From a virus, in the IMG/VR virus record IMGVR_UViG_3300045952_000062, positions 1-33,069 of that record: 33,069 nucleotides of DNA, one strand, 5' to 3'. Every line of letters begins with the position of its first letter. The stretch's first letter is position 1. The position numbers and the translations under genes were made by a program. Shown here in pieces: positions 11,825-32,918 of this stretch. The notes under the pieces were generated by a model. It was given only the letters and a program-made list of their open reading frames with translations. It had not been told where the DNA came from and did no database searches.

Positions 11825-12951
11825 TAGAGGAAAGCTCCTGCGATGCCCGCGCCCGCCCCGAGGTAATCCATCCAGCTCTTTTGCGGATTGTTCTGTATGC
11901 GCTGGCCGATATTGCCCTGCTGGATGCCTGCGCTAGTCTGTCTGTTACCGAGCTCGTAGTCCAGCCCGCGACCGTAGACGCCTTCCTGTGCGCCGTAGAG
12001 GGAATGCAGACCCTCCAGCCCAATCATCTGGCGACGGAAGGCATCATCAGCTGCCGCTCTGGAAGCAGAAGCAGACGCAGCCGCAGCCCTCTCAGCAGCA
12101 GCTCTGTCGGATTCAGCTCGCTGCTCGATGCCTGACCATCCGGTCCTGTTGCGACCATAGATGTCAGTTTCGAGTCCCTGAGTCATGTTGCCGGCTGTCT
12201 CAAGCGAACCGCCTCTGAGACTCTGATAGCGATTCTCTGCCAGACTCATCGCCTCAGCCGCGCTCATACGGCCAGTCCTGACTGCTTCGGAAATTCCCAT
12301 TTCTGCGTTCCGAGCAGCTTCAGCAGCAGCGCCAGCCTGACCGCGTCCCATCCGAGCCATGAGGACAGCCTTGCCCGGTCCTCCGCCGCCCTGGACGGAA
12401 GCCAGTCGATTGGCCTCTGTTTTCATCCGGTCATACATTGCGGGAATGCCGGATGTCCCACGTGCTCGGATGTTGGCTTTGTCAGCGTCAGAGTATCCGC
12501 CAGTCCGTGAGAACTCGTCGAATACTCCATCGCCCCTCATGCGTCGAGCAATCTCTGGGTCATCGGCGATTCCACGAATCTTCGTGATATCACCTTCCAG
12601 AGACTTGAGGCGCTCCGGGTCCCAACCGCCCGTCTTTGGGTCAGTCAGTTTCCGGTAATATTCCTCGACCTCTTTAAAGCGAGGATCTCCCGGCATAGGA
12701 GCTCCACCGCCTCCGCCTCCACCACCTGCTCCACCTGCACCGCCGGCGCCTCCAGCTCCCCCTTCTCCTCCCAGCCCAGCGAGGGAGCGATACTGAGCGT
12801 TGAGGGTGTTGTAGAGGTCGTCAGTTCGACCAGTGGCTTTTGACAGGTCGCCCTGACTACGGCCGTAAGCATTCCCGTAGGCGGTCTGCTCCTGGCCATA
12901 CTGCTGACCTATCATCTGGTTCGTCTGTTTCTTTTCTTTTCCGCCACCCAT
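11824..12951 (-). CDS. Internal virion-type protein, Gly/Ala-rich (375 aa)
   Basis: Begins MGGGKEKKQTNQMIGQQYG and has a glycine run at about residues 60-84 (GGAGGAGGAGGAGGGGGGGG), followed by helical segments with many Ala, Arg and Glu (GQAGAAAEAARNAEMGISEAV, and DRAAAERAAAASASAS). It ends in a short hydrophobic stretch, WMDYLGAGAGIAGAFL, a pattern I know from small internal proteins of podoviruses that insert into the outer or inner membrane (T7 gp14-like slot). Preceding it is an AGGAGG SD in the end of the GNAT gene and a TAATG overlap with it. No catalytic motif. Function inferred from order and composition. Confidence 0.88.
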   Translation of the reverse strand: MGGGKEKKQTNQMIGQQYGQEQTAYGNAYGRSQGDLSKATGRTDDLYNTLNAQYRSLAGLGGEGGAGGAGGAGGAGGGGGGGGAPMPGDPRFKEVEEYYRKLTDPKTGGWDPERLKSLEGDITKIRGIADDPEIARRMRGDGVFDEFSRTGGYSDADKANIRARGTSGIPAMYDRMKTEANRLASVQGGGGPGKAVLMARMGRGQAGAAAEAARNAEMGISEAVRTGRMSAAEAMSLAENRYQSLRGGSLETAGNMTQGLETDIYGRNRTGWSGIEQRAESDRAAAERAAAASASASRAAADDAFRRQMIGLEGLHSLYGAQEGVYGRGLDYELGNRQTSAGIQQGNIGQRIQNNPQKSWMDYLGAGAGIAGAFL

Positions 12952-13340
12952 TAGAGCCTCCTCAGTAGCAGCTCCCCAGGATTGTCAACTCGATCGAACG
13001 AGAAGTGTTTTTGTATGAGCAAGGAGAAATCCGGATCTCGTATAAAGCAGTAGATATCCTTAATGCCCGCGAGGTCTGTGCCTCTGAAAGCCTCATGCAT
13101 GAGTAACCGAGTAGCAGCAGCGCGATCTCGTTTTCTAACAGTCGGGTCAAGAAAGAGCATCGCTTCGGCGAATAGTCTGACTTGCCCGTAGCCCACCACT
13201 CTGTCCGACTCATCGACCGCAACAGCATCGATTATCCTGCTCTCTAATCCCGGTAGCGAAGACTCATGCGACCAGTGTTCTCGCCAGAGTGTGTCGAGCG
13301 TGAGAATGTCAGATGGCGTCAAAGTTCGGAGTTTTATCAT
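12951..13340 (-). CDS. GNAT-like N-acetyltransferase domain protein (129 aa)
   Basis: A small protein with the GNAT strand order: KLRTLTPSDILTLDTLW at the start, AVAVDESDRVVGYGQVRL (39-56) as the beta hairpin, MLFLDPTVRKRDRAAATRLLMHEAF (61-85) as the acetyl-CoA strand and helix, and a C-terminal DPDFSLLIQKHFSF. The Q/R-x-x-G-x-G/A acetyl-CoA loop is degenerate, with R-K-R-D-R-A in its place, so activity is uncertain. Two readings are possible. It may be the counterpart of the small GNAT-like protein that precedes the internal virion genes in T7-like phages (gene 13 position), or it may be a third modifying enzyme of the cassette upstream. Its start lies 32 bases inside the methyltransferase gene and its stop overlaps the next start (TAATG). 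Confidence 0.85.
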   Translation of the reverse strand: MIKLRTLTPSDILTLDTLWREHWSHESSLPGLESRIIDAVAVDESDRVVGYGQVRLFAEAMLFLDPTVRKRDRAAATRLLMHEAFRGTDLAGIKDIYCFIRDPDFSLLIQKHFSFDRVDNPGELLLRRL

Positions 13341-14649
13341 AGACGAAGTAGTCCGCGATATTGGGGCCTTTGCTCACCCCAAGAGCATGTCGGAACGAAC
13401 CTATCTCGACAGGCTCAATGTTGCCGTTGTAAGAGTAAATGACGAGAAAGCGGCAGCGACGCTCCAGAATAGCTCTGAGCTTGGTCCATCCCTCAGGGTT
13501 TTCGAGGAGGCGAGCCCGAGAAATAAGAGCAAGATCGAAATTATCAGGAAGGTCATCAAGGCTCCAGATATTAGCAGCAAGATGAGGCCTGTTTTTGGGG
13601 TCGGAGTCCACGCCGAAAATCTCCGCTCCAAACTCCTTTTCAAGTTTTCTGAGAAGTTCGCCATTACCACACCCAAAGTCTATGACGGAGGTAAAGGGTT
13701 GGATTCTGAGTAAGTCGAGAATAAGATTGTGTGCGTCTATCTCGGACTGTTTGTCCCTGAAGCCGTTATCCTGTGGACTGGTTTTGAGATAGGGAAACTT
13801 GAGTCCTGTAGCTGCTTCCTTCGGACCAGTGTTGCTATGGAGGCGGACGATTTTCTTCTCTGACAGCATATCGGTTCGCACTACTATCCGACACACTGGA
13901 GTAGAGATGATGGCGATTCCATGCAAACCTGACCACTCGATAGGCCAGGAGAGAATCTCTTTCAGAAGGTCAGCGAAAGTCCGACGACCCAGTCTAAGAG
14001 CGAGGTTGTAATAAAGCTCGCCCACTCTGCGAGTGTGAGGGCAATCGAAACTGCACGGAAGATGAGATACAAAACGAAGTCCCAGCCAGCGTAGGAGGAT
14101 ATTGTTAAAAGGACTGACAGCGAAATGATCAACAACGCCAGACGACATAGGAAAGCTAGTGTCCAGCCAGCTATCGTTCGTCCAAATTTTATTGAAGAAC
14201 GAAATGCAGCACAGAGGATAGCCGAGAAGCTCCCCAATCTGCTCATGGTCGCCAGCTTTGTAAGCGAGAACCATCCGGCTCACTTCCTTGGGCTGACCAA
14301 TAGCCAGCTTATATCCCCAGGGTCGGTTCAGGTCTACCAGCGAAGCCGAGGACGAATAGATGTCACTCAGCTGAACCTTGTCAACAGGAGCTACAAAGAG
14401 CCCCTCCAGCGTCTTTTTCTGCGTAAACTCATCCAGCTTATCGGCCGGACAGATTTGCAGACAGATATCTCGTAGCCCATATTTGACCGACTCTCCCTCC
14501 AGCCACTGGAAAAGACTCGAACACTCTTGAAAGACGCTTTCCCAGACTTCCCTAGCCTGACTGGAGGTCCAATTAAGCCGGACGAACTCTGCAGCCAGGT
14601 CCGGCTGCTTGACGAGATTGGTCCGTATGGTCTCCATGAGAATCCCCAT
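13309..14649 (-). CDS. Cys-rich GYPLCC-domain / SAM methyltransferase fusion protein (446 aa)
   Basis: A two-part protein. Residues 90-250 carry LLGYPLCCISFF (141-152) and HLPCSFDCPHT (196-206). This arrangement of paired cysteines recalls the DUF483-type 'GYPxCC' family as I remember it; the four cysteines and two histidines could bind metal or be redox-active. Residues 318-440 are a class I AdoMet methyltransferase: VIDFGCGNGELL (322-333) is motif I and FGVDSD (345-350) ends strand 2. The pairing with a radical SAM/SPASM protein immediately upstream, overlapping by 77 bases, points to a joint protein-modification pathway. Starts at 14649 or 14637 are both possible. The target is unknown; the HxD-repeat protein two genes upstream is the obvious candidate. 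Confidence 0.92.
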   Translation of the reverse strand: MGILMETIRTNLVKQPDLAAEFVRLNWTSSQAREVWESVFQECSSLFQWLEGESVKYGLRDICLQICPADKLDEFTQKKTLEGLFVAPVDKVQLSDIYSSSASLVDLNRPWGYKLAIGQPKEVSRMVLAYKAGDHEQIGELLGYPLCCISFFNKIWTNDSWLDTSFPMSSGVVDHFAVSPFNNILLRWLGLRFVSHLPCSFDCPHTRRVGELYYNLALRLGRRTFADLLKEILSWPIEWSGLHGIAIISTPVCRIVVRTDMLSEKKIVRLHSNTGPKEAATGLKFPYLKTSPQDNGFRDKQSEIDAHNLILDLLRIQPFTSVIDFGCGNGELLRKLEKEFGAEIFGVDSDPKNRPHLAANIWSLDDLPDNFDLALISRARLLENPEGWTKLRAILERRCRFLVIYSYNGNIEPVEIGSFRHALGVSKGPNIADYFVYDKTPNFDAI

Positions 14650-15748
14650 GAGGAACGTCCCCGTGCTCTGTTATCTGACCAGTCAGTGAACCGATAAATT
14701 CTCGATTCATTTGGTCGAAGTCTAGCAAGGACTCGCCACTGACCTGTATGTCGGCTCTGATATGGTCCATCAGTTTATACCAAAACTGACAGTCTTTCGT
14801 CCGATTCCGCCAGTCTCCGTCGATAGCTGTGCCCGGACACTGACCTTTGCAAGCGAAGAAGTAGAGACAGTCCTTGCAGCCTCCATCCTTCCACTCTGTC
14901 TTGGCAAGAGCTTCGTATCTTTCACGACTCGGGGTGTTTGCTTTGAGCCAGTCTATTCCTTCCTTGGTCGTTCTTCCACAGTTTACAAGCGCGCCCTCTG
15001 GGTTGATTCCATGGACGGCCGGCGTAGTGAGAGGGTCACAGCCTGACCAGATGCAGGTCGCACTCGCGTTCCTCTTGGTCAGCAGCTGTTTGATGTCCTC
15101 GAATGGGAGATACTTGATTTTCGACTGCCTCGTATCGTCGTAGATTGCCTTGAAGATGTCGAAGTTCTCTTCGTCAGTCAGGTCAAGGCTCTCGGCGGTT
15201 TCTATGTTGTCTACCTCAAGGTTGTGGAGATTCACTTGCTTGACCCCGAGAAGCTCCATATCCTTGAAGAAGCGAAGCAGACCCGGCAGATGTTCGACGC
15301 TCTTGCGATGGATGGTAGTGATAAGAGAGACCTCAACGCCTTCAGAGGTCATGAGTTGGATGTTGTCGATGATTTTCCTGGTTATTTCGTCAGAGCATCG
15401 AGGACTGTTTGCTCCCTCCGGTCCATCAATCGAGACTCCGACATGAACTCGATAAGCACGAAACATATCAACATGAGCAGGAGTAACAAGAGTGCCGTTA
15501 GTCTGAATACCATTACTACGGAACTTCTGATATCCATACTCCCAAATCTCCTTCAACTGCTCGATGGATGCAAGTAGAGGCTCGCCGCCAAAGACAGAGA
15601 AAGACTGATTCGATCTGCTCAAAGCCTCCTTTACCTTTACGAAGTTGAGAGGGGCAGAGAAATTTCCAGCTTCCCTCATAGGCTCCTGATAACAGTAGGT
15701 GCAGCTGAGGTTGCACTTGATTCCGACGGGCAAGTATTCTACTGTCAT
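14573..15748 (-). CDS. Radical SAM/SPASM protein with C-terminal HxD tail (391 aa)
   Basis: A complete radical SAM maturase. C12-x3-C16-x2-C19 binds the catalytic 4Fe-4S cluster and AdoMet, followed by FGGEPLL (53-59, the GGEP motif) and VSIDGP (105-110). The C-terminal SPASM domain fits its consensus exactly: C237-x14-G252-x4-C257, then C291-x2-C294-x5-C300-x3-C304 and C320, which can hold auxiliary clusters. The family includes anaerobic sulfatase-maturating enzymes and RiPP peptide maturases acting on proteins. Residues 362-376 are four H-x-D motifs (HGD, HGD, HGD, HTD), the same motif as the repeats of the upstream protein. Its ATG overlaps that gene's stop (ATGA), giving coupled translation. 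No RiPP leader-binding domain at the N-terminus was visible. Confidence 0.95.
   Translation of the reverse strand: MTVEYLPVGIKCNLSCTYCYQEPMREAGNFSAPLNFVKVKEALSRSNQSFSVFGGEPLLASIEQLKEIWEYGYQKFRSNGIQTNGTLVTPAHVDMFRAYRVHVGVSIDGPEGANSPRCSDEITRKIIDNIQLMTSEGVEVSLITTIHRKSVEHLPGLLRFFKDMELLGVKQVNLHNLEVDNIETAESLDLTDEENFDIFKAIYDDTRQSKIKYLPFEDIKQLLTKRNASATCIWSGCDPLTTPAVHGINPEGALVNCGRTTKEGIDWLKANTPSRERYEALAKTEWKDGGCKDCLYFFACKGQCPGTAIDGDWRNRTKDCQFWYKLMDHIRADIQVSGESLLDFDQMNREFIGSLTGQITEHGDVPHGDSHGDHTDQSRQAAGPGCRVRPA
14621..14665 (-). repeat. Four H-x-D motifs at the end of the radical SAM protein
   Basis: Codons for HGD, HGD, HGD and HTD (residues 362-376 of the radical SAM protein). The first 29 bases of the downstream methyltransferase frame (ATG at 14649 and ATG at 14637) lie within this same DNA in another frame. 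The match to the repeats at 15769-16365 in motif and in small spacers (V-P, S) is clear. Confidence 0.8.
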
Positions 15749-16689
15749 GGTCCTATCAGTATCGGTTGGTCTACGTGAGCGACGTCGCCATGAGTGTCAG
15801 TGTGAGTGTCCTGGTGAACTGCGTCGCTATGAGAATCGCCATGTGGAGAGTCTGAGTGCGCTACGGTATCCCAGTAATCCCCATGAGTTGCGTATGGTGG
15901 AACATCTTGATGGGGACTATCAGAATGCCAATCGTCGTGGGCAAAGTCCCAGTGCTGTCCATAGTCCCAATGGTCAGGATGAGCAGGAGGAGCACCACCA
16001 GCACCATCAGTATGATCGCCGAACGTCCACTCATCGTAGTGTGTGGCTCCGTATGGGTTTCCCTCTGCACCATAGGGACTAGAGTAGCAATCTGCGTGCT
16101 CCCACCTTGTTCTGACTGGCCCATCGAAGTGAGTCCCAGGTGCAGCAACATCTCTCCAGCAATCGTTGTGGTCACCGAAATTGACTGCCGGAGTATCCCC
16201 ATGAGCAGAATCCCAAAAATCGCTATGAGGAGTATCATTATGCCAGTCGTCGTGAACGCTAGAAGGAGGGACATCCACATGAGCGTTGTCAACATGCGGA
16301 ACGTCGATGTGAGCGCCGTCCGTGTGAGCATCACCATGAGTATTGACAGTAGCGACGTCCCAGTGATTGTTGAGGACTTGATGACGCGTTCCATCGTAAT
16401 ACCACAGCCAGCTCAGGTAGTTGTTCGACTGTTCAACCCAAACGCTCGTGATGGGCGGTCCGAGCGGTATCGTCTTAACGTGGTTTACTGGGGTCCGATA
16501 GATGGCAGTGCCAGCTTCATTAACCCAATAAATACCAGCTGTAGTCCCAGAATCCTGCCAAATAGAGCCTGGTAGGGCTCCCGAGACATTCTTGATGAAA
16601 GTTCCAGGAGAATACCACTCACGATTAAAAGCATCGACATAGTGAAGGTCGTTCCCCTCGACCCAGAGCGAGCCAGCGACTTTAGCCAT
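15745..16689 (-). CDS. Fibre-like protein with 29 H-x-D repeats (candidate substrate of the rSAM enzyme)
   Basis: A 314-residue protein. Residues 1-107 contain three degenerate W-containing modules (GSLWVEGNDLHYVD, GSIWQDSGTTAGIYW, TSVWVEQSNNYLSW) of the sort found in phage tail and fibre proteins. From residue 109 to 307 every histidine is in H-x-D, 29 motifs in all, with the middle residue variable (W, G, T, I, V, D, N, S, F, A, Y, P, Q) and spacers of 0 to 20 residues. Aromatic residues and two cysteines (HNDC, HADC) are mixed in. No known fold is apparent; such a surface could bind metals. The gene starts in a TAATG overlap with a tail-fibre gene and its stop overlaps the radical SAM start, so it belongs to the virion operon. 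Probably a virion tail component that is modified; role inferred. Confidence 0.93.
   Translation of the reverse strand: MAKVAGSLWVEGNDLHYVDAFNREWYSPGTFIKNVSGALPGSIWQDSGTTAGIYWVNEAGTAIYRTPVNHVKTIPLGPPITSVWVEQSNNYLSWLWYYDGTRHQVLNNHWDVATVNTHGDAHTDGAHIDVPHVDNAHVDVPPSSVHDDWHNDTPHSDFWDSAHGDTPAVNFGDHNDCWRDVAAPGTHFDGPVRTRWEHADCYSSPYGAEGNPYGATHYDEWTFGDHTDGAGGAPPAHPDHWDYGQHWDFAHDDWHSDSPHQDVPPYATHGDYWDTVAHSDSPHGDSHSDAVHQDTHTDTHGDVAHVDQPILIGP
15769..16365 (-). repeat. H-x-D repeat region (29 motifs)
   Basis: Codes for residues 109-307 of the fibre-like protein. The repeat is at the amino-acid level; the DNA is not a simple tandem repeat, which suggests selection on the H and D positions rather than recent slippage. 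Confidence 0.85.
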
Positions 16690-17153
16690 TAGCCTGTTAC
16701 GTAAGCGTCGACTCCCACCGGGATCACTAGACCAGTGTTGATGTAAGCGCGCCTGTATCTGTTCGCATTCGACCCCAAGTCAAAAGTCGCGTTGGCTTGA
16801 GGTAAAATCGTGCAGTTGTGCCAGAGCTGAGTCAAACCTTGAATCGCGCCGCCGGTGATATTGACAGCATTGGAGTTCTGATAAGCCATAGTCCCCAGAC
16901 CGAGACTGGCTGCAACCTCTCCAGCAGACCCTGCTCCTGTTCCTCCGCCTGTAATTCCGAGGACGAGAGCAACCCAAATGGTCCCATTCCACTCCTCGAA
17001 AATCTTACTCGTTCGGTTGAACCGCACCGACCCCACTGGCTGATTCGTCGGCGGGTTCAGAAACATCGTCCCCGAGTCGACGTCCCGGTCCTTGCACTCC
17101 GCTAGGAAAACGTCGTACTGAGTCGTCAGGAGGGGGTTGGACCAGTTTGACAT
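16689..17153 (-). CDS. Short tail fibre protein (154 aa)
   Basis: Begins MSNWSNPLLTTQYDVFLAECKDRD, then VGSVRFNRTSKIFEEWNGTIWVAL (about 40-63), a glycine-rich GGGTGAGSAGEVAASLGLGTMAYQ section (69-92), and VNITGGAIQGL (97-107) with a repeating strand pattern. This is the usual make-up of phage tail fibre C-terminal regions (the ITGGxIxGLxxL and GLGTMAxQ motifs). The R-F-N-R-T-S-x-x-F-E box also occurs in the fibre gene at 18569-19363. The start ATG at 17153 lies inside the frame of the upstream coiled-coil gene; the SD is weak (AGAGG). Its stop overlaps the start of the HxD protein (TAATG). Confidence 0.9.
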   Translation of the reverse strand: MSNWSNPLLTTQYDVFLAECKDRDVDSGTMFLNPPTNQPVGSVRFNRTSKIFEEWNGTIWVALVLGITGGGTGAGSAGEVAASLGLGTMAYQNSNAVNITGGAIQGLTQLWHNCTILPQANATFDLGSNANRYRRAYINTGLVIPVGVDAYVTG

Positions 17154-17743: not shown

Positions 17744-18565
17744 TTACATGCACATGTGATGAGTATGAGTCATTTTGTTGGTAATATACATCGTGACTGT
17801 GCCGATGATATAACCAACCTGATACGAACCGCCAGCAACTCGCTGGTCGTTATGAGCGTAAAGATTGATGTTTACTGTTGCCAGAGTGAACTTACGCCAT
17901 CTGAACCAAGCACCACCAGAATAGCCAGCTCCTCCACCTGCCCAGCATCCTCCACCACCTGCTCCACCCCAGAATGGAGAATTACCTCCAGCTACTCCAG
18001 TCCCAGAGCCGCCATTTCCTCCCCAGCCATGACCAGTTCCGCCGGTCTGACTGCCACCGCCGCCACCTGTCCCCCAATAATAGGCTGTCCCCTCGAAGTC
18101 AAGTAGGTTTCCTAGACCCGCGTTACCACCGATGTATTGGCCAGGCGCATGACCTCCAGGAGCGATACCAGCAGCACCACCTCCGCCAGAGTCCCATGAC
18201 CCATTGCCACCACACTGCCAGTAACCGCATCCACCTATGCCGCCACCTCCAGAGCCATCGTCGATATCTCCACCGCCACCGCCTGCAACGCCGTAGGTCG
18301 AGCCATTGCCAGACCCAGCGCCACCACCTCCGCCACCCCAGATACCAGCAACACCGTCGATATAGCAGTTGCCGCCGTTATTTCCCGGCGTATTGATTCC
18401 AACAGCTGCACCTCCAGGACCAATGGTGACTACTCGACCTTCTGCTCCAGTTGGCTGCCATGAGGATTGATGAACTTGACCTCCACCTCCACCGCCTCCA
18501 GCGATTCCTCCACCTCCTCCACCACCTCCACCAACGAGGAGATACTCAATAATCGGCCAAGACAT
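17744..18565 (-). CDS. Glycine-rich tail adhesin-like protein (273 aa)
   Basis: After a short start (MSWPIIEYLLVGGG), residues 12-220 are almost continuous glycine-rich motifs (GGGGGG, GGGGGAGSGNG, GGGGSQTGG), with scattered W, Y and N at intervals. Proteins of this design are phage receptor-binding adhesins whose Gly-rich blocks pack as polyglycine-II helices, with the few large residues at loop tips making specificity. The C-terminal 50 residues (FRWRKFTLATVNINLYAHNDQ) are a more ordinary beta domain, ending in a His/Met-rich tail (MTHTHHMCM). It lies between fibre genes, 3 bases after a preceding stop. Host-receptor contact is inferred. Confidence 0.9.
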   Translation of the reverse strand: MSWPIIEYLLVGGGGGGGGGIAGGGGGGGQVHQSSWQPTGAEGRVVTIGPGGAAVGINTPGNNGGNCYIDGVAGIWGGGGGGAGSGNGSTYGVAGGGGGDIDDGSGGGGIGGCGYWQCGGNGSWDSGGGGAAGIAPGGHAPGQYIGGNAGLGNLLDFEGTAYYWGTGGGGGSQTGGTGHGWGGNGGSGTGVAGGNSPFWGGAGGGGCWAGGGAGYSGGAWFRWRKFTLATVNINLYAHNDQRVAGGSYQVGYIIGTVTMYITNKMTHTHHMCM

Positions 18566-18568
18566 GTC

Positions 18569-19363
18569 TTATTCCTGAGAGACAGCAATCATCTGCCAAG
18601 TGCCGTAGTAAGCATTCCATCTGAAGCCCATATGGATAACTCGGTTAGGAGCTGTCGACGTAGGCATTGCGACACCGCAGCAGGTGTGAAAGTTTCCTCC
18701 GTAAGCTATCGGGCGAGCCGCGCCATTGTCTCTAAGCCTGACAATTACTGGATGACCGTCATAGGCTCCGGCAGTCCCTGAAATTGTGACGCCGCTAGAA
18801 ATGGCATTCACGATGTAAAGGTCGTAAGAACTACTAAGACCAAAGCTAGTGGTATCACTAACGGAATAAGTCCGAGGAAAAAGGACGCCAGCAGTCCAGA
18901 TATTACCAGCTACATAAAATCCCGTATTGCAATATAAGCCGTATGAACCATGACCAGCTATCCACCAGGAATTTTGCCAAGTCCAACCTGTATCTAATCG
19001 TCCAGGACTCATTGGACCAGAAGTCCAGACATGACCGATACGATTGATTGCTAGTAGTTGATTGAGGACACCAGAGTAAGCATCGTTAATAGTCCTAATT
19101 TGAAATTGAGCACTGGTATGAACTATATCGACGTTTTTGGCATCAACTCCCTGAGTTGTATCCCTAAGAGTAAGTAAGGGATTAGCCTTACTAATCATCT
19201 GGTCAGCACTGAACTCGTTGTTTATGTCCTTATAGGCAACGTTCGACGGCAACGCTCCAGCGTCAGTCCCTTCTACAGCAATCTTCAAGACCTGCCACGA
19301 GCCTCCATTATCGTCGGAGACCTCAAAGACGCGCGACGTCCGATTGAACCGCTGCCAACCCAC
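18569..19363 (-). CDS. Tail fibre / receptor-binding-type protein (264 aa)
   Basis: Starts GTG at 19363 inside a TAGTG overlap with the FN3 gene. The beginning (MGWQRFNRTSRVFEV) shares the RFNRTSxxFE box with the short fibre at 16689-17153, then comes KDINNEFSADQMISKANPLLTL, a common fibre trunk pattern (N-x-F-x-A-x-Q...P-x-L-x-L). The C-terminal half is beta-rich, including FHTCCGVAMPTSTAPN with a CC pair and HMGFRWNAYYGTWQMIAVSQ at the end, as in trimeric tips. Function as a fibre that contacts the cell surface is inferred from this pattern and position. Confidence 0.88.
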   Translation of the reverse strand: MGWQRFNRTSRVFEVSDDNGGSWQVLKIAVEGTDAGALPSNVAYKDINNEFSADQMISKANPLLTLRDTTQGVDAKNVDIVHTSAQFQIRTINDAYSGVLNQLLAINRIGHVWTSGPMSPGRLDTGWTWQNSWWIAGHGSYGLYCNTGFYVAGNIWTAGVLFPRTYSVSDTTSFGLSSSYDLYIVNAISSGVTISGTAGAYDGHPVIVRLRDNGAARPIAYGGNFHTCCGVAMPTSTAPNRVIHMGFRWNAYYGTWQMIAVSQE

Positions 19364-20811
19364 TAGACGATGCCTCTCGCTTTCCAGTCGACTGTCTTGG
19401 TTACCCTAGCTCCCATCGTGTCAAAGACGAAGACCTTGAAGAACGTAGGATTAGGCGCGTCAACGAAGTCAAAGATAACGACATAGGGCTCGATTACGCT
19501 CTTGGTCGTGCAGGTAATAGACTCTATGTCCCTGAAAGGTTTCGTGAACAGGACCGTAGTGCCACCAACGTCAGTAGCAAGAGCATTAACCTCCCCACCG
19601 TCATTCTCTCGCTTAACATTAAGACTAATAGTAAGATTATAGAGCTCAATGAAAACTTTGTCATTTTCCGCCACGAACTCTAATCTGTAGCGAAGATAAC
19701 GAAGTTGGGAGAAATACTGGGAAGCTCCGACGTTCATGCCGGACCAAGCTATCCCATCGTCTGAAACCTCCATCTTGACCGTGACTGCGACGTTGTATTC
19801 AGGGACAAAGATGATGGTATTCCAGGTGATGGTGACAATCGTGTTGTGAATAACGACGCCGTAGTCGATAGTTTCTTCGTAAGAGCCGTTGATTGCAGAC
19901 GGTTGGATGTAAATCGGATAGCCTGCTGTAACTTGGTCTTCCGGGTCCAGCCAGGAGCGAGTCGTGAAATGTCCCTGCCAGTCCTGAATCGTCCAGCAAG
20001 CCAGAAGAGAGGGCCGCTCAGGAAGTCGAATGACGTTGACACGCGTCCCATTGAGCCCAGAGACTTGAGTGTCTTGCAGAGCAAAGTCAGGAGGTGTGCT
20101 GACGTGAACGGTAGTCGAAGCCTCAGCTCCCACATTCCCTGCAATGTCAACCGCTCGAACACTGTATGTATAATCGCCAGCGACGACTTCGAAGATTGAA
20201 GTAAAAGTGCCGTCGACTCGACCTTCCGCCTCTGAGTCGCCAGTTTTGTCAACGAGGTAGTAGTCAATCTTGAAGGTAGAAACAGGCTCAGTCCAGTAGA
20301 GAAGAACGTTGTTGTCGATGACAGAGACAGTGATGGCAGGAGCCAGAATGAGTGGAACATCAAACGTCGTAGCCTGAAAAGTAGCTGAGTAGTTACCCTG
20401 AGAGTCGAGCGTCTTGATGAGGAAGTTGTAAGATCCATACAGGAGTGGGTCAATGTCTCCCTGTAGACCCGTAGTCCTAAACAGGAGAGAAGCCGTCTCC
20501 CAGACAGTGCCCTGCCTAATCTCATACTGCGCTGCGTAGTCGACGTGGTTCCAAGTGAATCTGACTGTTGTGCGGGTGGAAAAGCAAGTGAATCCACTTG
20601 GAGCTGGGAGAGTAGATACGCCTCCAGCGACCTGCCCAGACTTCCGGACAAGCGGAGAAACCTCCTGAGTGAGCCTCTCGATCTGCGTGTTAAGGAGCAA
20701 GATAGCATCGTAAAGTCTCGCGTCCTTTATCTGAACGCCCTGCATGAGCGACTCAACCTCATGCTGGACGGACCCAATGATTGAGTCTTCTGGCGGCTGC
20801 TTTGTCGCCAT
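19363..20811 (-). CDS. Tail protein with coiled coil and two FN3-like domains (482 aa)
   Basis: Residues 12-55 form an N-terminal coiled coil (VQHEVESLMQG, LLLNTQIERLTQEVS). Residues about 68-150 and 155-240 are two fibronectin-type-III-like domains (PAPSGFTCFSTRTTVRFTWNHV and AAQYEIRQG; then YWTEPVSTFKIDYYLVDK and YSVRAVDIAGNVG). The rest (245-482) is a beta-rich C-terminal region with a jelly-roll-like feel (SDDGIAWSGMNVG). FN3 domains decorate many phage tail tips. The gene is coupled to the nozzle-like gene (TAATG) and to the next fibre gene. Probably a tail hub or fibre base component. Confidence 0.9.
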   Translation of the reverse strand: MATKQPPEDSIIGSVQHEVESLMQGVQIKDARLYDAILLLNTQIERLTQEVSPLVRKSGQVAGGVSTLPAPSGFTCFSTRTTVRFTWNHVDYAAQYEIRQGTVWETASLLFRTTGLQGDIDPLLYGSYNFLIKTLDSQGNYSATFQATTFDVPLILAPAITVSVIDNNVLLYWTEPVSTFKIDYYLVDKTGDSEAEGRVDGTFTSIFEVVAGDYTYSVRAVDIAGNVGAEASTTVHVSTPPDFALQDTQVSGLNGTRVNVIRLPERPSLLACWTIQDWQGHFTTRSWLDPEDQVTAGYPIYIQPSAINGSYEETIDYGVVIHNTIVTITWNTIIFVPEYNVAVTVKMEVSDDGIAWSGMNVGASQYFSQLRYLRYRLEFVAENDKVFIELYNLTISLNVKRENDGGEVNALATDVGGTTVLFTKPFRDIESITCTTKSVIEPYVVIFDFVDAPNPTFFKVFVFDTMGARVTKTVDWKARGIV

Positions 20812-28547: not shown

Positions 28548-30884
28548 TTATGCTCCTACTTGCTCGGCCATCTGTTCCTCTCCACCTTCCTGTCCGGGCA
28601 TCGGAGCAGGCATCGGAGGACGAGCGAGAATGTCGTGTTCCTTCATGTGAGCAAGGACGTTGGCGTATCCACCAGGATTGGTCTCCTTCGCGTCGAGACC
28701 TACCTCGGAACGCAACCAAGCCTTGCAGACCTCAGCCTCTACTGGATGCTCGTCGAGCTCCTGGTCGACAGGAATCGAAGACTGCATCGTAGGCGGAGGA
28801 GGCGGCATACCCATCATTTGGGCCTGCTGCATCATCATCGGGTCGGCAGGAACTTCTTGCGGCTCTTCGCGAAGCATCCGAGCGATTTCGTAAAGCTGCT
28901 TGTTCCTGCTGTCATCGCCGGGAATGTAGAGCTCAGGAACCCCGATGATCGCGGCAATCAGGCTCGCATTCTCAGGATGACGGATAACAGACGCGATATC
29001 CTCGTTCTGCATCTGGATGAGATTGAGGATGACGTCCCGCTTCTGAGTCCATGAGACTGGAAATGTCTCGGTCACCTCTGGCTCTACGTCCCCGACCTCG
29101 CCGGAAAACTCCGACCTCTTCACCCACACGTTGACGAAGGAGTTTCCCTTACCTTTGACGTAAGACTCGTCGCCCTTCATGTTCTTGACGAAGGACCTGA
29201 CGGACTTTTCGATGACTCGAACCCACCACTCTTGGAGAATGTTCCAGGTCGTAGACAAACGCTGGAGGGCCGAAGCCTTGCTCATCTCCTGGCCCTTGGC
29301 TGTCTCGATTCCCTCGGTAGGTCCGCCATAGATGCTCGGATAGCTGCCCATCACGAACTGACTCATGTTGAAAGTCCGGTCCGCGAAGAGCTCTACCTCT
29401 TTGGAGAGGGTGGCAACCTTGATTTCGTGGAAGCCACTCGACAATCCCTGACCCGCCGGAGCCGTAGCTGGGGAAATCTGCCCAGGCCGAGCCTCCTGAC
29501 GCGGGTAAGTCTCAAAATCGAGGACACGAGAGTCAGCGAAGACCTCGGGAATACCGAATTCTACGGTTTCGAGCGTCAAATTCGCTAGCTCATTCGTAAT
29601 ATCTTGCATCGGGACCATCGTAGCCCCGATTGGCTCGGCATGAAGGGTCTCGGAGAGCGGATTTTCTGAAATCGTCCAGTGCTCATCCATGTTATCCTCA
29701 ACCATCTCAGCGACGAGGTTGTGATTGAGGATGACAACGTAGAGCCCCTTCTTGAATTTCTCCTTTGTCGCCTTGATTCGCTCGTTATTTCCACCAGCTT
29801 CGAGATTCAGAGCCCACGGACGCAACCAGACACGCTGAACAGTCACCAAATTCCGTGGCATGTCGCTACGATAGGACGAGGGAATGCGAGTTTCCTTGTC
29901 GTAGGAGTCCGGATAGGCATCGCCCTGGATTTTGTCGGCTATCTCAGGGTAAATTTCGCGGAGAAGCGAGACGTGCTCCTCAGTTTCGAGAATCAGATAG
30001 GGCGTGGAGAACTGGTCCCTACACCACATCGGAATCTTGACGTTGAGCGGCCCCCAAACTTCGAGGCATTCACGATTCTTGGGCAGACTTTTCTCGCCAA
30101 CCTGCCTCTGCTCTGTCCCAGGTGTGTCCTCGTAGTCCGGTTGGACTTGAGTTCCACAAGAAGGGCAGGCCCGCTCCGAGAGAACAGGACCTTCTGGGTC
30201 CAGCTCGTCCGGCTCAAAGCTCTCAGAACCAAGCTCGAACCCACAAGCAGGACAATAGTTGTCCCGATTGGTGACTTCCACGTCGGCGTAGTCGGGAACC
30301 TTGATAGTTCCGAAGCGATAGTCAGCTTTGTTCTCGTTGTAGCAGGCAACCATCCCCTGATTGTAGAGGATGAACAGAGCTTTCATGAGGAGGATGCGAG
30401 CGCGATTGTGTCGCTGGATGACCTCCGCCAGCTTGGAGTGAGCCTTCGCGGCCGTCACATCGTCTGGGTCGTCGGCATCCTTTGGAAAGAACCGGGTAGT
30501 AGGAACTCCGGCAGTAAGAGCACCGATAAGAATTTCACCATGCGCTTTGTAGACATTGACCACCTTCGCGTAGAGCGCGGGATCGATATCTGCCTGGGGA
30601 TCCTCCATGAGAATCTGCTCGGGAGTTCGCCAGTCATGCGCCAGCTCGTTGAGCGCGAGGTATTGCAGATTGTTCCAGTAATGAATGTGCTTGCGATACT
30701 TTAGAGTGTTAACTTGCCTGACAAACTCCTCCTCTTTCTCATAGCTCGTAATGAGCGTCAGGATGTCCTTCGCCTCTTCCGTGTCGCAGAGCAGCTTCTC
30801 CTTCTCGGCGGACCCATCGATGACTTCCGCGTCGGTGATCTCTGCGGTAAGCGGCTTGATTGGCTCAGGAGTGAGAGTTTCCAT
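28548..30884 (-). CDS. Portal protein with zinc-ribbon insert (778 aa)
   Basis: The protein directly after terminase, with the size (778 residues) and helix-rich layout of large podovirus portals: YRKHIHYWNNLQYLALNELAHDW near the start, VQRVWLRPWALNLEAGG, the wing-to-stem region FPVSWTQKRDVILNLIQMQN, and a C-terminal unstructured, Pro/Met/Gly-rich tail (MMMQQAQMMGMPPPPP). It would form the 12-subunit ring at the unique vertex through which DNA is packaged and leaves. Residues 211-243 hold C-P-A-C and C-P-S-C pairs (CPACGFELG, then CPSCGTQV), a zinc-ribbon-like insertion that portal proteins do not usually have. Start TAATG overlap with the coiled-coil gene. Confidence 0.93.
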   Translation of the reverse strand: METLTPEPIKPLTAEITDAEVIDGSAEKEKLLCDTEEAKDILTLITSYEKEEEFVRQVNTLKYRKHIHYWNNLQYLALNELAHDWRTPEQILMEDPQADIDPALYAKVVNVYKAHGEILIGALTAGVPTTRFFPKDADDPDDVTAAKAHSKLAEVIQRHNRARILLMKALFILYNQGMVACYNENKADYRFGTIKVPDYADVEVTNRDNYCPACGFELGSESFEPDELDPEGPVLSERACPSCGTQVQPDYEDTPGTEQRQVGEKSLPKNRECLEVWGPLNVKIPMWCRDQFSTPYLILETEEHVSLLREIYPEIADKIQGDAYPDSYDKETRIPSSYRSDMPRNLVTVQRVWLRPWALNLEAGGNNERIKATKEKFKKGLYVVILNHNLVAEMVEDNMDEHWTISENPLSETLHAEPIGATMVPMQDITNELANLTLETVEFGIPEVFADSRVLDFETYPRQEARPGQISPATAPAGQGLSSGFHEIKVATLSKEVELFADRTFNMSQFVMGSYPSIYGGPTEGIETAKGQEMSKASALQRLSTTWNILQEWWVRVIEKSVRSFVKNMKGDESYVKGKGNSFVNVWVKRSEFSGEVGDVEPEVTETFPVSWTQKRDVILNLIQMQNEDIASVIRHPENASLIAAIIGVPELYIPGDDSRNKQLYEIARMLREEPQEVPADPMMMQQAQMMGMPPPPPTMQSSIPVDQELDEHPVEAEVCKAWLRSEVGLDAKETNPGGYANVLAHMKEHDILARPPMPAPMPGQEGGEEQMAEQVGA

Positions 30885-31318
30885 TATTCGACCTTAGCGA
30901 CTACTGCCTCTTTCGCCTTGTCAGCCTCTTCGACCTCGCCGATGCGCTTCTTCCAATACTCGTCCCGGACCTTCTTCTCGTAGCCCGCTGCTACGACTGC
31001 CCAGGGCTTGCGGACTGAGCGAATGGGCTTCATCTCTTTTTGTTCGCTTGGCGAACTATTACTCGAAAGTCCCAACCGCTGCGCCACGATCGAAGCTGAC
31101 TGCTCCATCAGCTCGTCGAGTCTAGCTTCGTTCCGGTCGACAGCCTTGTTGTATAGCTCGAGGATGTGAAGTTTCTCATCCCTCTCAGCTTCCATCTTGG
31201 CTTCGACTTCCTTGAGGCGATTCTCAAGGGTAAAGACTTCGGCTATCAGCTTGTGCCTAGTGAGGCCGATAACGTAGTCTACCCGAGAATCTTCCTCTGT
31301 TTCTGGGAATGGACTCAC
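30884..31318 (-). CDS. Small coiled-coil protein between TerL and portal (about 145 aa)
   Basis: The open frame runs from 31459 but its first part lies fully inside TerL in another frame. I start at GTG 31318, 13 bases after AAGGAG, which still overlaps TerL by 62 bases; this start is uncertain. The protein has a long charged coiled coil (AEVFTLENRLKEVEAKMEAERDEKLHILELY, residues about 25-57) and a short Ser-rich patch (SSNSSPSEQKE) encoded partly by the palindromic repeat at 31042-31056. The C-terminal part is basic then acidic (EYWKKRIGEVEEADKAKEAV). No known family recognised. Its position suggests a packaging or portal-assembly accessory. Confidence 0.75.
   Translation of the reverse strand: MSPFPETEEDSRVDYVIGLTRHKLIAEVFTLENRLKEVEAKMEAERDEKLHILELYNKAVDRNEARLDELMEQSASIVAQRLGLSSNSSPSEQKEMKPIRSVRKPWAVVAAGYEKKVRDEYWKKRIGEVEEADKAKEAVVAKVE
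31042..31056. repeat. Palindromic repeat copy 3 (GTTCGC-TTG-GCGAAC)
   Basis: Six-bp arms around TTG on the + strand; a seventh pair is T-G. On the - strand it reads TAATAGTTCGCCAAGCGAACA, which matches copy 1 through the flanks (TAATAGTTCGCC.. GCGAACA). It is translated as the Ser-rich patch SNSSPSE of the coiled-coil protein. Confidence 0.6.
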
Positions 31319-32918
31319 TCGGTTTTCGGAACTCCTTGTCGTAGACCGCCATCTGACGGTTGTAGGTGTTCCAATCCCCAGTGCGCTCCAGACCCTGAAC
31401 GATTTCAGCCAGTCTACCGTATTTCTCAGCCAGCTTTCCAGATAACGAATAGTAGGCATCGATAGCTTTCAGGAGATAGCGACCACCGTCGTAGGCGTCG
31501 TCACCGATGAACTCCGCGACGTCCTCCGCCTTCTTTGTATTCTCCGTATCTGCGTAAACACAGGCAGGAACGACACGCCGGAACTCCTCACAGCACTCAC
31601 AGACTTGGAGCTTAGGGAGGTTCGTCTCTGGAGCCTCTGGCTCAAAGAGCTCGATGTAATCCTTGTAAGCCGCAGGTCCATTATTGCGGAGGATCTTGAA
31701 GGCCATTTCCTCCTGATAGCCTTCAGCCGGAGTAAATGAAGCCGGTCGAGGAGACCAGCGTAGATATTCGTGCATGAGCGACTTACCACCGATGCGGTCG
31801 TTGTCGGCCTTTTCCCACGGCATACCCGTGGCATCGATGATTTGGTCAGCAATCGTTTGCTCTTCACCTTGATGCTTCCATGCGCTCGGGTCTAGTTTGA
31901 ATGAAACGACTGCGTCTCGCTCAAGTTCTGTAAGGCGTGCAACTTCAGCGCCCCAGACGGCGATGTTAGTTTTGCTTCGGACAAGCTCACGATAAAGAAT
32001 GGCTCGCCTATCGGGAGTTGCAACAGCCCATCCAACCCAAGTCTTTCCTGGATGATATCCCCAATCTGCTGCCATGACTCGGGGCATCCAGACTGGAGGA
32101 ACAAAGTTCGGTATGACGTGACAAGCGTTGTCAGGCTCGTCTGGGAACCTTGTTCCATAGAAGGGGTCTCGCCACTCGGTAAAGACTTGACCACTGAAGA
32201 CCCACCAGTCTCCATATATCTTTGCTCGCTGCTCTGCTAGAGGTAGGAGACGGAGACGCTTGATGTAGCCCGGGTCTTTGAGTAGGAGATGAGGGTTATC
32301 GGTAAGGAGTGCGCGTATGAAGATGCGCTTGGTGTCGGAGTCGACGTCGTGTATGAGGACGTTGCCCTTCGGAGCGGGCTCAATGAATCGTTTCCGAACC
32401 CAGAGATGTCCGATGTTCCCAGGGTTAGTAGCAGAGCGAACAATAGGAGGGATACCAGGAAGAACAGAGCGAACACGAGAAGTGAGATACGAATACCGGA
32501 ACTCGTTGAATGCAGTAAGCTCATCGAAGCCGATGTATTGATACTCGTTCGTGTCATGGTCCCGAGCGTCCTTGTCGTTCTCGAGATAGGAGAACCGGAT
32601 GACTGCTCCGTCTGGGAACGTGCATACGTGCTTGGTAGCATCATAGGTTGCTCCCAGCGCCTTGTAGATAGGGACGGCACGGAGGATGAGAGATGCCTCA
32701 AGCTGAGGGAACGTCTCTCTGAACAGGACTCCATGAAATCCTCTTACCTTGTGAAACCCATATACGATGGGGAGCATGTAGAGGAGTTCGCTTTTTCCTC
32801 CACCGACTGCCCCACCGTATAGAGCCTCAAAGACGCTGAACGGAATCCGGATGAACTCAACTTGCTTCGCGTGAGGTTTCCAGACTCTGTCATACTTCCC
32901 TATCTCCGCTACGGGCAC
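31257..32918 (-). CDS. Terminase large subunit (553 aa)
   Basis: A complete DNA-packaging motor protein. The ATPase part has Walker A GGAVGGGKS (35-43), Walker B YQYIGFDEL (126-134, catalytic D-E at 132-133) and the coupling motif RSATNPGN (161-168). The nuclease part has D285 in AADWGYHPGKT (283-292), D343 in DPSAW and D474/D477 in GDDAYDGGRYLL. It moves DNA into the head and cuts it to length. Starts at GTG 32918 (no ATG is available). The 3' end overlaps the coiled-coil gene. A small subunit was not found in the window; it may be further upstream, perhaps the partial gene at the right edge. Confidence 0.95.
   Translation of the reverse strand: MPVAEIGKYDRVWKPHAKQVEFIRIPFSVFEALYGGAVGGGKSELLYMLPIVYGFHKVRGFHGVLFRETFPQLEASLILRAVPIYKALGATYDATKHVCTFPDGAVIRFSYLENDKDARDHDTNEYQYIGFDELTAFNEFRYSYLTSRVRSVLPGIPPIVRSATNPGNIGHLWVRKRFIEPAPKGNVLIHDVDSDTKRIFIRALLTDNPHLLLKDPGYIKRLRLLPLAEQRAKIYGDWWVFSGQVFTEWRDPFYGTRFPDEPDNACHVIPNFVPPVWMPRVMAADWGYHPGKTWVGWAVATPDRRAILYRELVRSKTNIAVWGAEVARLTELERDAVVSFKLDPSAWKHQGEEQTIADQIIDATGMPWEKADNDRIGGKSLMHEYLRWSPRPASFTPAEGYQEEMAFKILRNNGPAAYKDYIELFEPEAPETNLPKLQVCECCEEFRRVVPACVYADTENTKKAEDVAEFIGDDAYDGGRYLLKAIDAYYSLSGKLAEKYGRLAEIVQGLERTGDWNTYNRQMAVYDKEFRKPSESIPRNRGRFSGRLRYRPH

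Follow-up and report, generated by a model that had tools for sequence, protein, structure and literature searches.

The window analysed here, a stretch of 33,069 nucleotides that forms a partial virus record, encodes a radical SAM (rSAM) protein whose C-terminal tail carries H-x-D (HxD) motifs resembling those of the repeat protein encoded beside it. We propose, with a probability of roughly 0.45, that this virus-encoded enzyme is a cyclophane-type maturase of a tail protein, and that its substrate-like C-terminal arm docks in an HxD-binding site of the complex. The more explicit version, in which viruses of bacteria and archaea use a dedicated radical SAM enzyme to turn their own tail proteins into long cross-linked chains of three-residue cyclophanes, and the arm either docks the substrate or partner or undergoes cross-linking itself, appears to us somewhat less probable. 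The cyclophane chemistry, the role of the tail protein as substrate and the docking are all suggested by sequence comparisons.

The rSAM gene (14573..15748, minus strand) specifies a protein of 391 residues, which matches the Pfam Radical_SAM profile (2e-14; 54.6 bits against a cut-off of 29.5). In an alignment of 39 rows the cysteines of its CxxxCxYC motif at residues 12-19 (C12-x3-C16-x2-C19) are invariant, as are the SPASM cysteines C232, C237, C257, C291, C294, C300, C304 and C320. An AF2 model built with 37 homologues in the input has a pLDDT of 84, and Foldseek found anSME (E 1e-14) and ChlB to be the closest solved folds. By its cluster motif and fold the protein belongs to the radical SAM superfamily, and the C-terminal cysteines, predicted to hold auxiliary clusters, assign it to the SPASM subfamily. 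Its nearest NCBIfam models are DynA, AmcB, the sulfatase maturase, PapB and GrrM/OscB, and it scores below the cut-off of every one of them. Direct translation of the minus strand places the tail motif, HGDVPHGDSHGDHTD, exactly at 14621..14665 as residues 362-376, with residue 362 starting at 14665 and residue 376 ending at 14621. This confirms the position given in the initial annotation, as well as its statement that the motif lies beyond the last SPASM cysteine, C320. The tail is not a chance feature: the 71-residue tail of the window protein contains four HxD motifs against 0.55 expected, a number reached by 1 in 2000 shuffles of the tail, and 39 relatives together have 152 HxD per 3421 tail residues versus 19 per 12762 residues of the catalytic core. 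In the AF2 model the tail is predicted to be disordered (pLDDT below 45), and even with the 37 homologues it was placed in no groove.

Judged by sequence, other genes of the window look like terminase (31257-32918), portal (28548-30884) and tail genes. A tail tip or J-like protein is encoded on the minus strand at 19363..20811 (phrog_1727 tail protein, 1.1e-13; phrog_31 central tail fiber J, 1.9e-06), and the rSAM cassette, all of whose genes lie on the minus strand, follows downstream of it, which places the cassette in the tail module. Also in this module is a very glycine-rich protein with long GGGG runs (17744-18565, minus strand), whose C-terminal region has an ending like TITNKMTHTHHMCM. 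Immediately upstream of the repeat gene lies a gene for a tail-associated protein (16689..17153, minus strand) that ends in IPVGVDAYVTG, has weak PHROG and endosialidase-tail-spike matches, and is kept at this place in the nearer relatives. The repeat protein itself, the putative substrate, has 314 residues (15745..16689, minus strand) and 29 HxD motifs; its repeat part spans about 15769-16365, with the ending HVDQPILIGP, and the protein ends in HGDSHSDAVHQDTHTDTHGDVAHVDQPILIGP. It had no match in Pfam, NCBIfam or PHROG, and its gene position suggests that it is part of the virion. Downstream of the rSAM gene, a protein combining DUF483 with a class I methyltransferase is encoded at 13309..14649 (minus strand); its matches to DUF483 (0.0008) and Methyltransf_23 (6.8e-06) both lie under the Pfam cut-offs, and its AF2 model has a pLDDT of 92. 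The methyltransferase domain is nearest by sequence to the plantazolicin methyltransferases BpumL/BamL, for which structures are solved, and by fold to NodS; in the fold search intended for DUF483 this domain filled both match lists. The cassette is followed by a small protein that we term GNAT-like by resemblance (12951..13340, minus strand); it has no Pfam match, and a homologue is present in about 19 locus records, including L001, L007-L009, L012-L016, L021, L023, L026, L030 and L051.

To determine the spread of the tail, IMG/VR was searched with rSAM and DUF483 profiles, along with phage and plasmid collections and bacterial genomes. These searches recovered 104 distinct rSAM sequences, of which 87 below 90% identity constituted a non-redundant set; they come from IMG/VR viruses, Thermus phages, and bacterial and haloarchaeal proviruses. 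About 790 genomes from groups chosen around Chengkuizengella (its order and phylum) yielded three new genomes with the family. Tails and repeats were defined by simple motif rules, a tail being scored as present when two or more HxD follow the last SPASM cysteine. By this rule 70 of the 87 relatives have a tail, mostly with an HxDHxD unit, and the other 17 divide into five with a single degenerate unit (for example PHGDHWE in L244, PHGDHMN in L291 and HADSD in L274) and 12 with none. On the tree the tail state changes 7 times, versus 15.8 for shuffled labels, or 5 times versus about 11 if degenerate units are counted.

The initial annotation had linked the tail strictly to a neighboring repeat gene, and a one-to-one link of this kind does not hold. 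Tail-less rSAMs adjoin repeat genes in L045, L056, L223, L235, L150, L151 and the haloarchaeal L138 and L274; the first four of these also have a separate DUF483. The converse situation, a tail with no repeat gene nearby, was seen only on two contigs that end close by (L022, 8 kb; L246, 0.75 kb downstream). Since tail-less homologues exist beside repeat genes, the tail is a common but dispensable element of the family. In a genome of the order Paenibacillales (L143:4101-6194, minus strand) rSAM and DUF483 are fused in one tail-less ORF of 698 residues. Next to it (L143:6198-9350, minus strand) lies a gene for a 1051-residue protein with an HxD array as its C-terminus; this protein has no evident phage character, and the cassette may thus also occur outside viruses. 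A plasmid provirus of the haloarchaeon Halomicrococcus (L138:5338-8498, plus strand) encodes a baseplate J protein, an H/Y/F-x-D repeat protein, rSAM and DUF483, which shows that the cassette extends beyond viruses of bacteria to those of archaea.

The association with the repeat proteins was examined against control loci of other radical SAM proteins: of the 79 family loci that extend at least 2.5 kb upstream, 73 contain a repeat ORF, compared with 0 of 107 controls. Three of the remaining six loci (L160, L225 and L275) carry repeats of a variant kind (Phe-, Asn- or mixed-aromatic) that the HxD filter missed. Over 20264 residues of repeat sequence, the position two after His is occupied by Asp 2896 times, Asn 437 times, Glu 22 times and Ser 14 times. 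Where Asp has no His at -2, one finds F, Y or W there in 48% of cases, compared with 6.7% for other offsets (p about 1e-198); Asn behaves likewise, with an aromatic residue at -2 in 23% versus 7%, and Glu, Ser and Thr do not. The repeats hence obey a rule, with an aromatic residue (His, also Phe, Tyr or Trp) at position 1 and Asp or Asn, hardly ever Glu, at position 3. The extreme case is the repeat protein of L160 (4196-5983, plus strand), where almost every His has given way to Phe (TPFAQTPFANTGFVNT...) and the repeat is almost only F-x-N/Q/S. This protein keeps the same N-terminal region along with a C-terminal HVDQPVYVGP, its first and last motifs are still HxD, and the tail of the accompanying rSAM reads HLDHSD; it offers a natural test case for the chemistry. 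A converse scan for DNA patterns encoding HxD arrays returned mostly tandem repeats of a homogeneous kind or repeats in the wrong frame. Among 20 arrays that looked varied and natural, about 16, counted by eye, adjoin a family rSAM; in three others the context was cut off, and the array of L410 had no family rSAM within 10.9 kb.

In the mechanism that we envisage, the rSAM would form bonds within aromatic-x-D/N triplets, linking residue 1, through its aromatic side chain, to the C-beta of residue 3, so that the repeat protein, a likely component of the tail fibre, would become a stiff chain of three-residue cyclophanes. Such linkages are known from characterised maturases, in which a ring atom (Trp, Phe, Tyr or His) is connected to the C-beta of the second residue after it (Asn, Asp, Ser, Arg or Ala): OscB forms Trp-Cbeta(Asn/Asp), XncB/OscB Phe-Cbeta(Asn), YxdB Tyr-Cbeta(Asp) and HaaB His-Cbeta(Ala) (reviewed in PMC11002830). 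Enzymes that form cyclophanes also figure among the NCBIfam models nearest to the window rSAM, at scores far below the cut-offs. The DUF483 protein, often with a methyltransferase, would assist or add a second modification; DUF483 is nearly always encoded with the rSAM, and the fusion in L143, the one such case, joins it to a tail-less enzyme. The flexible C-terminal arm, ending in a specialised substrate-like PHGDH[TWY]D unit, could then dock in DUF483 or in the peptide groove of the rSAM itself, and so keep the enzyme close to its partner and to the many-site substrate. A leader-binding domain was not identified, and recognition would therefore have to rest on the motifs. L160 retains HLDHSD despite its Phe-based substrate, which suggests that the arm serves a constant partner, i.e. 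DUF483 or the rSAM groove, and is not an image of the bulk substrate. At the same time, docking cannot be essential, given that tail-less relatives with DUF483 and repeats persist. The earlier idea of a mimic or tether is thus consistent with the conserved motif, the disordered linker, the purifying selection described below and the near-constant association with a repeat gene, but not as an obligatory element.

The main rival is that the tail is itself a substrate, with the rSAM modifying its own HxD units in cis as a form of priming, auto-inhibition or timing. The tail units obey the same aromatic-x-D rule as the repeats, including YGD units in the L232 tail, and a flexible linker of 24-96 residues separates the last SPASM cysteine from the first HxD. 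However, the fixed middle residues of the tail unit (G, then T/W/Y) would be needless if only reactivity mattered, and in L160 the HLDHSD tail was kept while the substrate became Phe-based. We accordingly regard self-modification as unlikely, though worth serious consideration.

Less probable still is that the tail binds metal or iron, as an appendage for storage or delivery to the Fe-S clusters, and that the repeats likewise bind metal. His and Asp are dense and both are under purifying selection, and HxH motifs in phage fibres such as T4 gp37 hold iron (PMC11705849), which gives a precedent for phage tail proteins with repeated His-x-residue motifs. That precedent has ligands at both motif positions; the repeats described here accept Phe, Tyr or Trp for His and Asn for Asp with hardly any Glu, changes that destroy ligands, and they nearly always adjoin a dedicated rSAM. 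This pattern of substitutions, with Glu rejected, fits triceptide chemistry by analogy and speaks against metal ligation. The suggestion in the initial annotation that tail and repeats bind the same metal is especially weakened by L160, with its almost all-Phe repeat protein beside an HLDHSD tail, although the tail alone could bind metal.

The tail can also be distinguished from the repeats as a specialised element. Its characteristic motif is PHGDH[TWY]D, in 1 to about 7 copies. Among HxDHxD units, the form HGDH[not G]D accounts for 55 of 68 in tails versus 18 of 163 in repeats, and the x of HxD is Gly in 57% of tail motifs versus 15% of repeat motifs. In a group of eight phages the motif codons show 73 synonymous to 0 non-synonymous pairwise differences, whereas the 24 linker codons before the motif show 107 to 447; the motif is under strong purifying selection. 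The HxN share of tails did not correlate significantly with that of their own repeats (rho 0.18, p 0.15), and the number of repeat motifs did not differ significantly between loci with and without a tail (p 0.07). In L341 (10391-13315, plus strand) two family rSAM genes stand in tandem, the first of which has about seven PHGDH[TVW]D units at its end, arranged as 'RPHGDHTDQALVEGIVD' modules.

These features bear on the notion, also raised in the initial annotation, that the tail is a trace of fusion or recombination with the neighboring repeat gene, and on its reading as a functionless relic. The genes adjoin and the motifs are similar, and across loci the DNA of a tail resembles the repeat gene of its own locus slightly more (mean percentile 0.27), as shared codon usage and kinship would likewise give. 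Nevertheless, the window tail DNA scores 30 against its own repeat gene and up to 40 against others, the tail has its distinct signature, it persists over deep divergence, and its motif codons bear the 73:0 mark of selection. Recent copying from the repeat gene is not supported, and we consider a relic very improbable.

The overlap of the tail with the downstream gene, which had also been pointed out, is real, in that the ATG of the methyltransferase gene (14649 or 14637) lies inside the tail-coding DNA, but only the window and its nearest relatives have it. In other relatives the distance from the rSAM stop to the DUF483 domain is about 0 to 2300 nt, and in L181 DUF483 lies upstream, with the tail present throughout. 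That the HxD codons merely serve the downstream gene, with CATGG(G/A)GA acting as start codon and ribosome-binding site for DUF483, we reject as scarcely credible: in the window and in L001 the start of DUF483 does fall within the tail-coding DNA, and the HGD codons contain GGxGA, but the tail persists where DUF483 starts 200-2300 nt away or upstream and thus cannot be a by-product of the overlap, both synonymous forms of the H and D codons are used about equally, and a ribosome-binding site does not require His.

Among known systems, the triceptide maturases or 3-CyFEs (XncB, OscB/GrrM, MscB, YxdB, HaaB, YhhB) are also SPASM rSAMs adjoining a protein with repeated aromatic-x-Asp/Asn motifs, and the repeat proteins of our family have the corresponding His, Phe, Tyr or Trp at position 1 and Asp or Asn at position 3. 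They differ in that the substrate here is viral, has 200-1200 residues and up to about 90 motifs, and comes with a DUF483 partner and an enzyme bearing a substrate-like tail; the enzyme falls well short of the curated cyclophane-maturase cut-offs (DynA 90.9 vs 450; AmcB 89.4 vs 425; GrrM/OscB 64 vs 310). The His-Xaa-Ser system (HxsA/B/C/D) likewise sets an rSAM beside a protein with repeats of His-x-small or polar residue, but our family has Asp or Asn and hardly Ser at position 3 (14 Ser against 2896 Asp after His), usually one rSAM, and DUF483 instead of HxsC/HxsD, and the HxsB score is 39 bits versus a cut-off of 370. The anaerobic sulfatase maturase is similar in fold alone, the score against its equivalog model being 82.6 vs a cut-off of 349.45. 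A homologous counterpart is the 'rSAM module' of the Thermus phages Cumys and phiMa, for which DNA modification was proposed (PMC11437467, Viruses 2024). As described there, it has the same genes in the same order, namely an unknown gene, which corresponds to the HxD repeat gene, rSAM and DUF483, and the rSAMs share 39% identity over their full length; the window adds the methyltransferase domain and the GNAT-like gene. The passages of that paper considered here mention neither the repeats nor the tail, and name no tail protein as substrate. In the open-access literature searched, we found no report that describes the repeats, their aromatic rule or the enzyme tail, and nothing relevant on rSAM action upon phage tail proteins.

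If our proposal is correct, bacterial and archaeal viruses alike would use radical SAM peptide chemistry, and would do so on a virion protein instead of a small peptide natural product. The repeats would then have a chemical reason, namely rigid fibres resistant to heat and proteases, apt for viruses of Thermus and halophiles, and such fibres would represent a new class of cross-linked biomaterial. The enzyme would be a peptide-modifying one in which a copy of its recognition motif stands in for a leader-binding domain. For the Thermus cassette this provides an alternative to the published DNA-modification guess, which is testable on phages in culture. In a further Thermus phage, phiLo (L005:13807-16935, minus strand), two large HxD repeat proteins of 474 and 560 residues are encoded on the strand opposite to the rSAM and DUF483 genes. 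In L002 (8569-9747, plus strand) the cassette is followed by a gene for a further protein with HND/PPHNDV repeats, which is perhaps a second substrate.
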